This document shows, one piece after another, positions 8,118 through 53,902 of a stretch of DNA of 64,000 bases. A model generated the notes under the pieces. The model had not been told where the DNA came from and ran no database searches. It saw only the letters and a program-made list of their open reading frames with translations. Source of the DNA: a candidate division WOR-1 bacterium RIFOXYB2_FULL_45_9 (GTDB taxonomy: Bacteria > Margulisbacteria > WOR-1 > O2-12-FULL-45-9 > XYB2-FULL-48-7); assembly GCA_001771575.1 (NCBI GenBank), contig MEUD01000001.1:832815-896814 (forward strand), written 5' to 3'. Positions within the stretch are counted from its first letter, which is position 1. The number at the start of each line of letters is the position of its first letter. The translations under genes were made by a program, and so were the position numbers.

Positions 8118-9074
8118 TTAAGCTAATTCAGCGCCGCTTAAGGCGTTGCGGTAAAATTGGGCATACTTGTCTTTATCTTTGCCGGCCCGGAGGGCCATCG
8201 CGTCCCGCGGGTGCTGGTTCAGTATCCCGGTGATCATGTGAGGAATGATGTAACCCCATTCGAGCTTTTCCCGCAGAGGGATAAATTCGGTTTCGATCAC
8301 TTCCAATATCGGTTCCAATTTAAACTTGGGGTTCTTTAAAAAAGCGAGAAGAAGCTCCATGGGACAGTTCCCCGCCGCCCTGCCGATCCCAAAGATCGTC
8401 GCGTCAAGATAATTCGCCCCTTTGCGGATCGCTTCGATCGTGTTGCCAAAGCCCAGTTGTTGGTTGTTGTGGCAGTGGATCCCGACTTCGATCCCTTTAG
8501 GATTAAGATATTTCTTGTATAGCGCGACCAGAAAATGGATCTGTTCGGAATAAAGAGCGCCGAAACTGTCGACAATGTAAACCGCCTTGACCGGCACGTC
8601 GGCCAATTGCTTAAGCGCTTCTTCCAGGTCGGGAACCAGAGCGGTCGAGATCGCCATGATATTGATGGTCGTCTCGTAGCCCTTGTCGGCGCAGGCTTTA
8701 ACGTGCTGGATCGCCTTATCGACGTCTTTGACGTAGCAGGCGACCCTGATCATGTCGACGACGCTCTCTTTTTTCGGCCTGATCGCGTCAAGGTCGACCC
8801 GGCCGATATCGATCATCGTCGATATTTTTGACTTTGACTCGATCCCGTCGATCGCTTTTCTGACGTCGGATTCTTCGCAGAACTTCCATTTGCCGTATTT
8901 ATCAGGGGAAAAGAACTTTTTGTCAGCCTGGTAGCCGACCTCAATGTAGTCGACCCCCGCGGCTGAACAGGCGGCATAGACCGCCCGGACAAACTTGTCT
9001 TCAAAATTGCATTCGTTGATTAAGCCGCCGTCGCGGATTGTGCAGTCAAGGACCTTGATTTCTGGTCTGAACAT
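8118..9074 (-). CDS. DRE-TIM metallolyase / HMG-CoA-lyase-like aldolase
   Basis: 318 residues. The opening KVLDCTIRDGG gives the Arg-Asp pair of the DRE-TIM active site, and GIHCHNNQQLG supplies the His-x-His metal ligands at about residues 198-200. Closest general type is the 4-hydroxy-2-oxovalerate aldolase catalytic domain, found singly here without the dehydrogenase partner, so the substrate is uncertain. It follows metH by 7 bases but has its own TATAAT overlapping the metH stop, so it may also be transcribed alone as a leaderless mRNA. Confidence 0.85.
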   Translation of the reverse strand: MFRPEIKVLDCTIRDGGLINECNFEDKFVRAVYAACSAAGVDYIEVGYQADKKFFSPDKYGKWKFCEESDVRKAIDGIESKSKISTMIDIGRVDLDAIRPKKESVVDMIRVACYVKDVDKAIQHVKACADKGYETTINIMAISTALVPDLEEALKQLADVPVKAVYIVDSFGALYSEQIHFLVALYKKYLNPKGIEVGIHCHNNQQLGFGNTIEAIRKGANYLDATIFGIGRAAGNCPMELLLAFLKNPKFKLEPILEVIETEFIPLREKLEWGYIIPHMITGILNQHPRDAMALRAGKDKDKYAQFYRNALSGAELA

Positions 9075-19122: not shown

Positions 19123-20103
19123 ATGACCAAACTGGCCAGAATAAACCACACGACCCTACCGCCACTCCTGGAAACTCGCGCGCTCACTTTCCTCAAGGCT
19201 CCCCTGCCCAGGAAAGAGTACCTTGAGGTCCTGGCCGACGCCGGAGCCGTCGGCCGCCAGATCCGGGCGGTTATGACCCTCTCCGGACCTATGATTGAAG
19301 AGCTGAAAGTGACGACGATCTCTGATTTCACCCTGGCTTTCGAATGGACCATGAGTGAACGGATCGGCTATGACCATTTTGCCGCCTTCGCCGAAGCCGG
19401 GACCTGTCGAATGGTCGATCCCCGTTTTCCTTCCCCAACTAAAAAGGTCGCCTTCTCCGTCTTCGCCAGAGATCGGCTTGCTCTGATCGAGGAGATCAGC
19501 GCTCGTTTCTTCATGACGCCGGCAATGCCGTCTGATATCGTCCTTGCTCCCTGGGCCTGCGACTGCTGTTTCGAGACTCAACACCTGGACTACTTAAAAA
19601 GCCTCCTTGACCTGCGCGGGATCGGTTCGATGCTGATCATAAGAATCATGGCAACAAATTTCGGCCAAGCCTTTGATCGCGTCGCCGCCTCCCCATTTTT
19701 GACCTGGATGCAAGCGGCCGGATTTGAGCCTTCCTGGTTTCTCGGTTTTGATAATCTTGTTTATTTAAACGACCTGGCTCTTGATGAAGAGGCTAATGGG
19801 AGAGGAAGCGTTCTCTACCCCCTGCCGGGCAGGAAAATTGGAATGGAGGTATTGGCTCTGCGTCAGACAATAAAAGAGAAGATCGGCCATAATGAGCCGT
19901 ACTTCGATCACCTGTTTAATTTGTATCTTGTTTTTCAGCGGATCGAATGTTCAGACCGCGTCGTTTTGAACAAGATTTTCGCCGAAGCAATGCAATGGGA
20001 AAGGGAACACGCGGAGGAAAGACGTCCTCGCAAGGGAAAAGAAACATCCAGGTTGATCGACCGCTTTTCTAAGCGATTGCCTTTTCTGCTGGATCAGTTA
20101 TGA
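19123..20103 (+). CDS. Protein of unknown function (326 aa) with a CDCC motif
   Basis: I do not recognise this family. It is a soluble, helix-rich protein without signal peptide or clear membrane segments. Visible marks: several RRA/RQIRA basic stretches near the start, WACDCCFETQHLDYLKSLLDLRG near residue 145 with three cysteines, and a basic C-terminal tail. It is transcribed from the symmetric -10 shared with mnmA and followed 52 bases later by another unknown gene on the same strand, so the two may belong together. Confidence 0.65.
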   Translation: MTKLARINHTTLPPLLETRALTFLKAPLPRKEYLEVLADAGAVGRQIRAVMTLSGPMIEELKVTTISDFTLAFEWTMSERIGYDHFAAFAEAGTCRMVDPRFPSPTKKVAFSVFARDRLALIEEISARFFMTPAMPSDIVLAPWACDCCFETQHLDYLKSLLDLRGIGSMLIIRIMATNFGQAFDRVAASPFLTWMQAAGFEPSWFLGFDNLVYLNDLALDEEANGRGSVLYPLPGRKIGMEVLALRQTIKEKIGHNEPYFDHLFNLYLVFQRIECSDRVVLNKIFAEAMQWEREHAEERRPRKGKETSRLIDRFSKRLPFLLDQL

Positions 20104-33424: not shown

Positions 33425-34051
33425 CTAGTTCTTGTTTTCTAATCCCTTAACCTTATTTTTCAGTTCCAAAATCATATCTTCGCGGTCCATGGCGGACTTA
33501 TAGAAGACTTCCAGCTCGCCAAGCCTTTTCTTCAATTCTTCCTCCACTTTCTTGCGCTTAGTGATATCAGCCTCTAACTCCATCATTTTGCTCTCAAGCT
33601 GTCTAACCACCCGCTCATTATAACCTTTCAGGAATTCAACGCTCGACGCGTCAAGCGCTCGGTGTGGCACCACCCCTTCCTTTTTTATCTTCTCCAACAC
33701 CTCATTTACCGCTTTAAGTGTTTCGGCTGGCCCCATCGGCCACATTATAAAGCCATCCGCTCCCAATTTTAAGGAGAACTGTTCGTCGCTTTTATCCGTA
33801 TAGCTCGAAGTAGCCAGGATAAAAGGGATGTTCTTTAGTTTTTCATTTTCTTTACACTTCAGGCACAACTGAAAGCCATCCATTTTCGGCATAAGAATGT
33901 CGGAAATAATCAGGCCAACTGGTTCCTGCCGCAGAATAGCCAGCGCCTCCTCGCCATTATTGGCGCTTACAACTTCATACCCTCCGCTCTTTAATATCGT
34001 CTCAAGGAGATAAAGATTCTGTTTATTGTCATCCACAGTTAGAACTTTCAT
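33425..34051 (-). CDS. Response regulator with C-terminal coiled coil and no output domain
   Basis: About 208 residues from the ATG that follows AGGAGGCTGG. Receiver domain 1-120: LTVDDNKQNLYLLE, phosphoacceptor in LIISDILMPKMDGFQL, then ATSSYT and MWPMGP where Lys is usually found (the conserved Lys is not obvious here). Then a helix (about 140-205) with predicted coiled coil ending ELEVFYKSAMDREDMILELK, a signalling-helix ending also found in the PAS protein at 51459. Third gene of the kinase-regulator-regulator set. Confidence 0.87.
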   Translation of the reverse strand: MKVLTVDDNKQNLYLLETILKSGGYEVVSANNGEEALAILRQEPVGLIISDILMPKMDGFQLCLKCKENEKLKNIPFILATSSYTDKSDEQFSLKLGADGFIMWPMGPAETLKAVNEVLEKIKKEGVVPHRALDASSVEFLKGYNERVVRQLESKMMELEADITKRKKVEEELKKRLGELEVFYKSAMDREDMILELKNKVKGLENKN

Positions 34052-34067
34052 TTTTCCAGCCTCCTTT

Positions 34068-34427
34068 TTACAGATACTTTTCGATCTCGGGGATAAAAGT
34101 CTCCGGATCGATCGGTTTCTCAATATATCCCGTACAGCCGGCCGCCATTACTTTCTCCCGGTCACCGGTCATGGCACAAGAGGTTATGGCAATAATCGGA
34201 ACCTTCCCGCCAGCTTCGCGCTCCCTGATTCGCTTTGTTGTTTCATACCCGTCTATCCCCGGCAGCATGATATCCATTAATATCAGGTCCGGACGTTCTT
34301 TTATCGCCAGCTCAACACCTTTTTCTCCGGTTTCGGCTTTTATTACTTCATAGTTTTTATTTGAAAGGATAAAGTTCATAAGATACATGTTCTTTTCATT
34401 ATCCTCAACTATTAGTACTCTTTTCAT
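34068..34427 (-). CDS. Single-domain response regulator (DivK/CheY-like)
   Basis: 119 residues: VLIVEDNEKNMYLMNFIL, phosphoacceptor in LILMDIMLPGIDGYE, Ser of ITSCAM and Lys in YIEKPID. No output domain, so it probably carries phosphate or docks onto partners. The start overlaps the kinase stop by 4 bases, making the kinase its likely donor. Confidence 0.93.
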   Translation of the reverse strand: MKRVLIVEDNEKNMYLMNFILSNKNYEVIKAETGEKGVELAIKERPDLILMDIMLPGIDGYETTKRIREREAGGKVPIIAITSCAMTGDREKVMAAGCTGYIEKPIDPETFIPEIEKYL

Positions 34428-51458: not shown

Positions 51459-52778
51459 TTATAAAGACTGTGGTTCCTGGCTTTTTTTCAGCCGCTCAAT
51501 CTCCTTCTCCAGCTCGATCATTTTTATTTCCCGGCCCACAGTTAACTTATAGAATTCTTCAAGGTCGTCTATTTTCTTCTTCAATTCCATATCCATCTGC
51601 TTGCGTTCGGTTATGTCCTCGGAGATCCCCAGCAGGAATTTTGTGGCCCCGTCTTCTCCCTTTACACAAACCTTATGGGTATGCAGTAAACGCACCCCTT
51701 GCTTAGCCGTCGTAATTGGTTCTTCCGGAATATCCACTTTGCCGGTCGCCCCATCCAGGACTTCCCGGTCTTTGGCCATAAAGTTTGCCGCCTGTTCCGG
51801 CGGAAAAAGATCCAGATTGTTCTTGCCGAGCAGATCTTTGCGGTCATATCCCAGGAGCTCCTCTCCCGCGCGATTGAAAATGACGAAACGCAGGTCAGTC
51901 GCCTCTTTAAGAAAGATCATGAGCGGGATATTTTCCACGACCGTCTCAAAAAGTGTTTTTGAATCATTCAATTCCTTTTGGGTCTGTTTGCGCTTGGTGA
52001 TATTATGCATGATCCCGAGTTCTCCGGCTTCCTTGCCCACGATCCCTTTCAGGGGTGACGTAGTGATCTCAAAATATAATTTCTGGCCGTTGCTACCGAT
52101 CGCTTCAACCTCATAGGGCTCAACAGCAACTCCCTCTTTTCTAGCGGCAAAGTTGGCAACCATCAAGTCCACGCTTTCTTTCGTAAATTTACCGATCATA
52201 GCGTTTAATTTTTTGCCGACGATCTCCTCTCTTTTATAGCCGCTGATTAATTCAGCCTGCGGATTAAGATCAACTACAGTCCCAGACGCGTCAAGCTGGA
52301 CCAGGATATCGGAGGATGAATCGAACAGGGATTTGTACCGCTCCACAGCGCTCCTGGTCTCGGCCTCGATCCGCTTGCGCTCGGTAATGTCGCGCTCGGT
52401 CGAGGCGATCCCAATTACTTCCCCCGTTTCGTCGACCAGTTTCGTTACGGTCAGCCAGACATCGAGCAGGCGCCCGTCTTTGGTCAGCCGCTGGGTTTCC
52501 AGCGAAGAGACCTTTTCGCCGGCTAATAACCGGCGGTTGAAATCCTTTTGCTCGGCAGATTTATCAGGGGGAGTAAGGTCCCAGATGTTATTTTTCAGCG
52601 CTTCTTGCTCGCTGTAGCCATACATCAGCTCGGCGCCGCGGTTCCAGGCGGTAATCTTTCCCTCGAAATCCTGAATCGTGATCGCGTCGTTACTGTCCCG
52701 CACCACCGTCACCATCCGGCTGGCTTCGTTCAGACGGGCCTGCAGTTTTTGGTATTCACTATCGGGTAGTTCAACCAT
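51459..52778 (-). CDS. Triple-PAS sensor protein without a kinase or output domain
   Basis: About 439 residues from the ATG at 52778, or 461 from an ATG at 52844 whose extra codons cross a C10 run. PAS 1 about 10-130 (NDAITIQDFEGKITAWNRGAELMYGYS; ends DITERKR), PAS 2 about 140-265 (ends NITKRKQ), PAS 3 about 270-400 (ends DITERKQ). A coiled coil closes the protein, EEFYKLTVGREIKMIELEKE. No histidine kinase, GGDEF or receiver domain follows, so it must signal through a partner. The upstream region looks phase-variable. Confidence 0.88.
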   Translation of the reverse strand: MVELPDSEYQKLQARLNEASRMVTVVRDSNDAITIQDFEGKITAWNRGAELMYGYSEQEALKNNIWDLTPPDKSAEQKDFNRRLLAGEKVSSLETQRLTKDGRLLDVWLTVTKLVDETGEVIGIASTERDITERKRIEAETRSAVERYKSLFDSSSDILVQLDASGTVVDLNPQAELISGYKREEIVGKKLNAMIGKFTKESVDLMVANFAARKEGVAVEPYEVEAIGSNGQKLYFEITTSPLKGIVGKEAGELGIMHNITKRKQTQKELNDSKTLFETVVENIPLMIFLKEATDLRFVIFNRAGEELLGYDRKDLLGKNNLDLFPPEQAANFMAKDREVLDGATGKVDIPEEPITTAKQGVRLLHTHKVCVKGEDGATKFLLGISEDITERKQMDMELKKKIDDLEEFYKLTVGREIKMIELEKEIERLKKSQEPQSL

Positions 52779-52786
52779 TTGACAAT

Positions 52787-52814
52787 AGTATACGTCTAGG
52801 GGGGGGGGCGTCAA
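52787..52814 (-). promoter_or_regulatory. Promoter with a C10 homopolymer spacer, putative phase-variable switch
   Basis: Minus strand: TTGACG (52814-52809), 16-base spacer made of ten C residues plus six others, TATACT (52792-52787), then ATG after 8 bases. Gain or loss of a C would change the spacer towards or away from the optimum 17. The same run is also in frame behind an alternative ATG at 52844, which has AAGGA upstream. Confidence 0.65.
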
Positions 52815-52882
52815 TAGCTTTACATAAATAAATAGGACAGCCATTATATTCCTTCGTATTATGCTAAAATACTGATAATTAC

Positions 52883-53902
52883 ATGTTCTGTTTAGCGATT
52901 GAAACCTCGTGCGATGAAACCGCCGCCGCTGTTGTCAGGGACGGCCAGGAAGTCTTGTCCAACGTCATCGCTTCCCAGATCGAGTTCCACAAAAAATACG
53001 GCGGGATCGTCCCCGAGGTCGCGTCCCGTTTGCACGCGGAAACGATCTCCCCCATCATCTTGGAAGCGCTTACCCGGGCCGGAAAAGAGCTCTCGGAGAT
53101 CGACGCGGTCGCCGTAACCTTTGGCCCCGGACTGGTCGGCTCTCTGATCGTCGGGGTCAGCGCCGCGAAAGCGCTTGCCTGGGCGATCAAAAAACCACTC
53201 ATCGGAGTAAATCACCTGGAGGGGCATATCTACGCGAACTTCCTAACCCCCATTCCCCAGTCCCAAGTCCTCTCGTTCCCCTTCATCTGTCTTCTGGTTT
53301 CCGGCGGCCATACTTCATTAGTACTGGTCAGGGGCCATGGCAACTACGAGACGATCGGACGGACCAGAGACGATGCCGCCGGAGAAGCCTACGATAAAGT
53401 CGCCCGGTTCCTGAAGATCGGCTACCCCGGCGGACCGATCATTGATAAGCTGGCAAAAGAAGGAAATCCTAAGGCAATTCAATTCAAGCGGCCGATGATC
53501 GAAGAGGAGTTCGGCCTGGATTTTAGTTTCAGCGGCCTAAAAACAGCTGTAGTTAATTTTGTCAACAAGGCGGGGGGAACCGAGAATTTATTCTCAGGAG
53601 GGACCCGCCTTGTTGATCTCTGCGCCTCTTTCCAAGCCGCCGTCGTCGACGTCCTGGTTGAAAAAAGCCTGAAAGCGGCAAAACAACATCACTGCCAAAC
53701 AATCGCCCTGGCCGGCGGGGTCTCAGCCAACTCGGCGTTGAGGCAAGAGCTAAAGGCGAAGGCAGAGGCCAAAGGGATTGTGGTCCACATCCCGCCGCTT
53801 GAATACTGCACCGATAATGCCGCCATGATCGCCTGCGCTGGATATTATAAATCCATTAATTCGTCATTCTCCCTCGCCCCTATTGCCAGCGCCAGGATCT
53901 AA
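52883..53902 (+). CDS. tsaD: tRNA N6-adenosine threonylcarbamoyltransferase
   Basis: 339 residues, ASKHA fold. AIETSCDETAAAVV, YGGIVPEVASRLH, metal ligands in NHLEGHIYANFL (His about 111 and 115), SGGHTSLVLV and the later CTDNAAMIACAGY. Transfers the threonylcarbamoyl group to A37; partners TsaB and TsaE are encoded 40 kb away. The stretch TPIPQSQVLS (about 122-131) comes from a C-rich low-complexity tract and lengthens a loop. A TAAAAT box 12 bases upstream is its likely -10. Confidence 0.95.
   Translation: MFCLAIETSCDETAAAVVRDGQEVLSNVIASQIEFHKKYGGIVPEVASRLHAETISPIILEALTRAGKELSEIDAVAVTFGPGLVGSLIVGVSAAKALAWAIKKPLIGVNHLEGHIYANFLTPIPQSQVLSFPFICLLVSGGHTSLVLVRGHGNYETIGRTRDDAAGEAYDKVARFLKIGYPGGPIIDKLAKEGNPKAIQFKRPMIEEEFGLDFSFSGLKTAVVNFVNKAGGTENLFSGGTRLVDLCASFQAAVVDVLVEKSLKAAKQHHCQTIALAGGVSANSALRQELKAKAEAKGIVVHIPPLEYCTDNAAMIACAGYYKSINSSFSLAPIASARI
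53244..53270 (+). repeat. In-frame C-rich tract in tsaD
   Basis: CCCC-spaced units (ACCCCCATTCCCCAGTCCC) coding TPIPQSQ. Similar in style, on the opposite sense, to the G-rich tract in mnmA. Confidence 0.4.

Follow-up and report, generated by a model that had tools for sequence, protein, structure and literature searches.

Putative promoter of the PAS gene

On the minus strand of the window (the whole stretch of 64,000 nucleotides that was analysed), a run of ten C residues is located within a plausible promoter of a gene encoding a PAS-domain protein. The question raised by this locus is whether the run serves as a phase-variable switch, as was proposed in a preliminary description of the sequence. 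Direct reading gives the minus-strand order TTGACG, C10, TAGACG, TATACT, ATTGTCAA and ATG (Table 1), and a promoter consensus scan returned 10/12 matches with a 16-nt spacer for the TTGACG/TATACT pair. The distance of 16 bases between the two hexamers, ten of them C, the ATG 8 bases after TATACT, and a second ATG at 52844 with an AAGGA site, downstream of which the C10 run is in frame, had been reported in that description and were all confirmed at the positions given there. The ORF list likewise opens the PAS frame at ATG 52844. Inspection of the sequence 3-12 nt 5' of ATG 52778 showed no Shine-Dalgarno-like site, and the extended -10 TG is absent from the PAS promoter both here and in G001, the single additional genome from this genus that was compared.

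The C run probably forms the slippage-prone spacer of a sigma70-type, effectively leaderless promoter situated at a recombination junction, where its length may tune expression; this is the reading preferred here over that of a selected switch.

Table 1. Features of the putative promoter region of the PAS gene (positions in the window)
Feature	Position	Strand	Remarks
PAS gene, 439 aa	51459..52778	-	three PAS domains and a coiled-coil-like tail, without an output domain
ATG, conserved (putatively leaderless) start of the PAS gene	52778-52776	-	direct reading
TATACT, putative -10 hexamer	52787..52792	-	kept in G001; 8 nt 5' of ATG, as at many genes here
TAGACG, between C10 and TATACT	52798-52793	-	direct reading
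C10 homopolymer	52799..52808	-	in the putative -35/-10 spacer; orthologous tract is C12 in G001
TTGACG, putative -35 hexamer	52809..52814	-	5/6 match; missing from the G001 orthologue
Alternative upstream ATG	52842..52844	-	in frame through C10; no G001 counterpart
AAGGA, Shine-Dalgarno-like	52850..52854	-	would serve ATG 52844; direct reading
tsaD, divergent neighbour	52883..53902	+	syntenic in G001, there parted from the PAS gene by a Fic-family gene

A putative leaderless promoter layout across the genome

The window contains 16 instances of the arrangement TATAMT-N5-9-ATG; 2.3 are expected, and the observed count was reached in 0/100 shuffles. Genome-wide, TATAMT-N7,8-ATG was found 80 times compared with 29 for the reversed control, and the histogram of TATAMT-to-ATG gaps peaks at 6-10 nt. 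Sites of this kind that lead into an open frame number 72; they commonly carry the extended -10 TG (T 53%, G 60%) and show TTG most often at a spacer of 17 nt. Taken together, this enrichment, the gap peak and the TG and TTG preferences make many genes of the organism look leaderless. It is the placement of the -10 box relative to the ATG that goes beyond chance, and at the PAS locus the -10 half of the promoter is well supported. Since the layout is widespread and TATACT-N8-ATG fits it, ATG 52778 is the likely start of the PAS gene, giving a protein of 439 aa that begins with MVELPD; transcription would begin at this ATG or 1-2 nt before it, as appears to be the case at many genes of the organism. 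The PAS gene resembles other leaderless sigma70-type genes in placing TATACT 8 nt upstream of a conserved ATG and in having no Shine-Dalgarno site, but differs from them in the missing extended -10 TG and in its unusual C-run spacer. Its -35 (TTGACG, 5/6) belongs to the better ones found at the 72 sites, many of which have no good -35.

The same layout, with TATAAT or TATACT 6-10 nt before an ATG, can be seen across the window, for example at 8118-9074 (minus strand) and at 19123, 49236, 53920 and 61082 (all plus strand). It could help to correct annotated starts and to place gene starts in this lineage; no specific report of leaderless genes in uncultivated phyla emerged from a literature search.

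Comparison with G001 and probable exchange of the PAS gene

The orthologue of the PAS protein in G001 shares 95% protein identity, and the sequence upstream of its gene reads ...GCCATTGCGCCG-C12-ACCAAGGTG-TATACT-ATTGGCAA-ATG, with TATACT-N8-ATG conserved. Counting the run in related genomes had been proposed as a check on the switch. Its length does differ, being C10 here versus C12 followed by ACC in G001 (C-rich stretch of 10 versus 15), a single comparison between two genomes; a scan of genome contigs for the PAS protein found distant relatives from other phyla only and no further strains. The DNA match to G001 sets in exactly with the first C of the tract (window 52808). Beyond that point the G001 orthologue has no TTGACG, no counterpart of the upstream ATG and AAGGA, and, ahead of the conserved ATG, no ATG, GTG or TTG in frame. 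A -35 of its own was considered for G001 and rejected, as the nearest TTG belongs to TTGCGC, which at 23 nt from the -10 is too far away.

Identity to G001 at the DNA level is ~93% for the PAS gene and ~78% for the adjoining syntenic genes. Similarly, dS against G001 is 0.205 for the PAS gene, compared with 1.02 for tsaD, 1.19 for HK, 0.65 for gatA, 0.68 for the EamA-like gene and 1.29 for the 358-aa gene. The simplest interpretation is that the PAS gene forms a block which was exchanged or recombined recently and is bounded on the left by the C tract. Alignment of 51459-52808 with L061:17666-19006 outlines a single-gene block with a dS of 0.2, the left edge of which falls sharply at the C tract. 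Between tsaD and the PAS gene, G001 carries a Fic-family gene; a search with Fic gave relatives in 12/13 genomes and did not account for the junction. At L002:323-1465 in G001, after the Fic-family gene come TAATCCGGCAA repeats together with a 25-bp segment, which matches the 5' end of tsaD of the present genome at 24/25 positions, better than it matches the tsaD of G001 itself.

On the preferred reading, the spacer would thus hold a slippage-prone C tract exactly at the left edge of the exchanged PAS block. The downstream half of the promoter (C tract, TATACT and ATG) would have travelled with the PAS gene, a direction of exchange that is itself presumed, and the upstream half would be local flank, namely TTGACG here and unrelated sequence in G001. 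A change of one C would shift the spacer from 16 to 15 or 17 and could tune expression in this lineage, the tract probably being ordinary, drifting sequence rather than a selected switch.

C tracts in the genome

Under a first-order model of the window, 0.40 C/G runs of at least 10 are expected per 64 kb, and the C10 run alone is not significant against chance. Scaling the same model up to the genome gives expectations of ~35 tracts of at least 9 and ~10.5 of at least 10, compared with 10 and four observed, respectively. Five coding C/G tracts of 9-10 were identified in the genome, all within intact ORFs, among them a G10 at genome position 1515687-1515696 (a further G10 is at 170986-170995); because these stay in frame, the assembly error against which the preliminary description had cautioned is unlikely. 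Eight C/G tracts of at least 9 could be aligned with G001, and the PAS tract is the sole unbroken run among them, the other seven being interrupted in G001; of nine tracts compared, those in L035, L037 and L045, which matched G001 only beside the tract, were left out of this count, and the match of L025 is diverged and paralogue-like, making its place among the seven the least certain. Among the runs found in G001 the PAS tract is the longest as well, and its unbroken state and length there could hint at selection. The C runs were also considered as a family of contingency loci; this was rejected, as they are rarer than expected and 7/7 of the other alignable tracts are broken in G001. An intergenic C11 (G000:C1:1218742-1218752), which is broken in G001, and an intergenic C9 (G000:C1:1142966-1142974), for which G001 gave no alignment, are each located 15-30 nt upstream of a gene start. 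A search for the combined pattern of C tract, -10 and ATG in this genome and in 31 genomes of the class yielded no second locus.

Is the C tract a switch?

Phase variation through promoter spacers is best known from host-associated bacteria and their surface proteins, and in porA the spacer tract between -35 and -10 is a homopolymer. In Neisseria meningitidis, the length of the porA tract sets the spacing, and switching has been documented in strains (van der Ende et al. 1995, reference 24 of PMC5084427). A poly-C tract of variable length is present in the promoter region of opc of the same species (Sarkari et al. 1994, cited in PMC5084427; PMC3960869), and opc phase variation has been shown experimentally (PMC3960869). 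A survey of meningococci drew on length polymorphism across genomes together with deep reads (PMC5084427). Like that of opc, the tract described here is a poly-C of variable length lying in the promoter region of one gene; unlike it, it is known from one assembly per species, adjoins an unconserved -35 and belongs to a gene encoding a sensor rather than a surface antigen. With porA it shares a homopolymer between -35 and -10 whose length sets the spacing, but the switching of porA is documented in strains, while the evidence here consists of the geometry in a single genome. A selected on/off switch at the C tract is possible but unproven. That the spacer is a poly-C switch of the porA/opc type, acting on a leaderless PAS sensor gene with no output domain and giving single cells a sensory state that is inherited yet can be reversed, is judged quite unlikely.

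A phase-variable promoter in the general sense, that is, a contingency locus at which slipped-strand mispairing in the C tract alters the -35/-10 spacing and so adaptively switches the PAS gene, is unlikely. The position of C10 within the 16-nt spacer between TTGACG and TATACT, the difference in tract length from G001 and an unbroken run kept while 7/7 other alignable tracts are broken are all in its favour. In addition, a spacer of 17 is preferred in the genome, so that C11 would outscore C10, and the promoter score of an EM model does rise from C10 to C11, although this score is rough and indicative only, every site having been placed in the -35 class. Of the features by which contingency promoters are recognised, a simple-sequence tract in or next to the core promoter is present and its length differs between related genomes (one comparison), but conservation of both flanking elements is lacking, as TATACT is kept and TTGACG is absent from G001, where TTGCGC stands 23 nt from the -10. 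The case rests on two genomes, tracts are under-represented genome-wide, and the search of the 31 class genomes yielded no further example. Furthermore, retention of the run by chance is likely at the low divergence of the block: the probability that 10 bases remain unchanged at 18-7% divergence is roughly 0.14-0.5 by our own estimate, and survival of the tract is unremarkable because the PAS block appears to have been exchanged recently. The promoter geometry, the -10/ATG layout and the difference in tract length put forward for a phase-variable switch stand, while the unconserved TTGACG, the missing second locus and the lack of tract enrichment speak against the switch itself.

Slippage had also been suggested to act on translation, alone or together with transcription. 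Initiation at ATG 52844 would then proceed through the C tract, with slippage toggling a long form of the protein, and both the Shine-Dalgarno-like site at this ATG and the frame open through C10 would allow it. However, G001 has no in-frame start upstream and the upstream sequence of this genome has no counterpart there, and the 22 added residues fall in no PAS domain, the first of which starts well inside the 439-aa form; this mode of switching is highly improbable. Neither the transcriptional nor the translational version is conserved as a device, because TTGACG and the upstream ATG and AAGGA are all absent from G001. A third view takes the tract for nothing more than a chance run or the site of a recombination junction and TTGACG for a coincidence, the gene being transcribed either from a promoter farther upstream or from TATACT in the absence of a -35. 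Homology breaks off exactly at the tract, TTGACG is not conserved in G001, and leaderless sites without a good -35 are numerous here, as this view would have it; yet neither genome has an extended -10 TG, so that TATACT alone would be weak, and TTGACG is a 5/6 match at a plausible spacing. This third view is considered rather doubtful, and the leaderless promoter with a slippage-prone, unselected spacer is retained as the preferred reading.

A tract that did switch would bring promoter-spacer phase variation to a sensory protein of a lineage that has been little studied. Otherwise, the locus would show that a recombination junction can give rise to a spacer homopolymer convincing enough to be taken for a switch, and would still expose a widespread leaderless-promoter layout in the lineage.

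The PAS protein and its relatives

Pfam analysis of the PAS protein identified three PAS domains and nothing else. Such a protein had been regarded as unusual for want of an output module, a view not borne out by the genome, in which PAS-only ORFs with a like tail are common. ORFs of 295, 182, 503 and 533 aa encode one to three PAS domains, in one case with CHASE4, and no output domain, and all four possess a similar tail of the GRE-x-x-MIEL type. The present protein shares with these PAS-only proteins both the PAS domains and the tail ('LEEFhxLavGREl+MIELExEI'), and differs from them in its three tandem PAS domains and in being a seemingly recently exchanged allele. It is likely to be an adaptor or input protein acting through partners. 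A tail related to that of the PAS-only proteins was also observed in a receiver-domain protein encoded at 33425-34123 on the minus strand, and the tail may represent an interaction module shared by the two kinds of protein.
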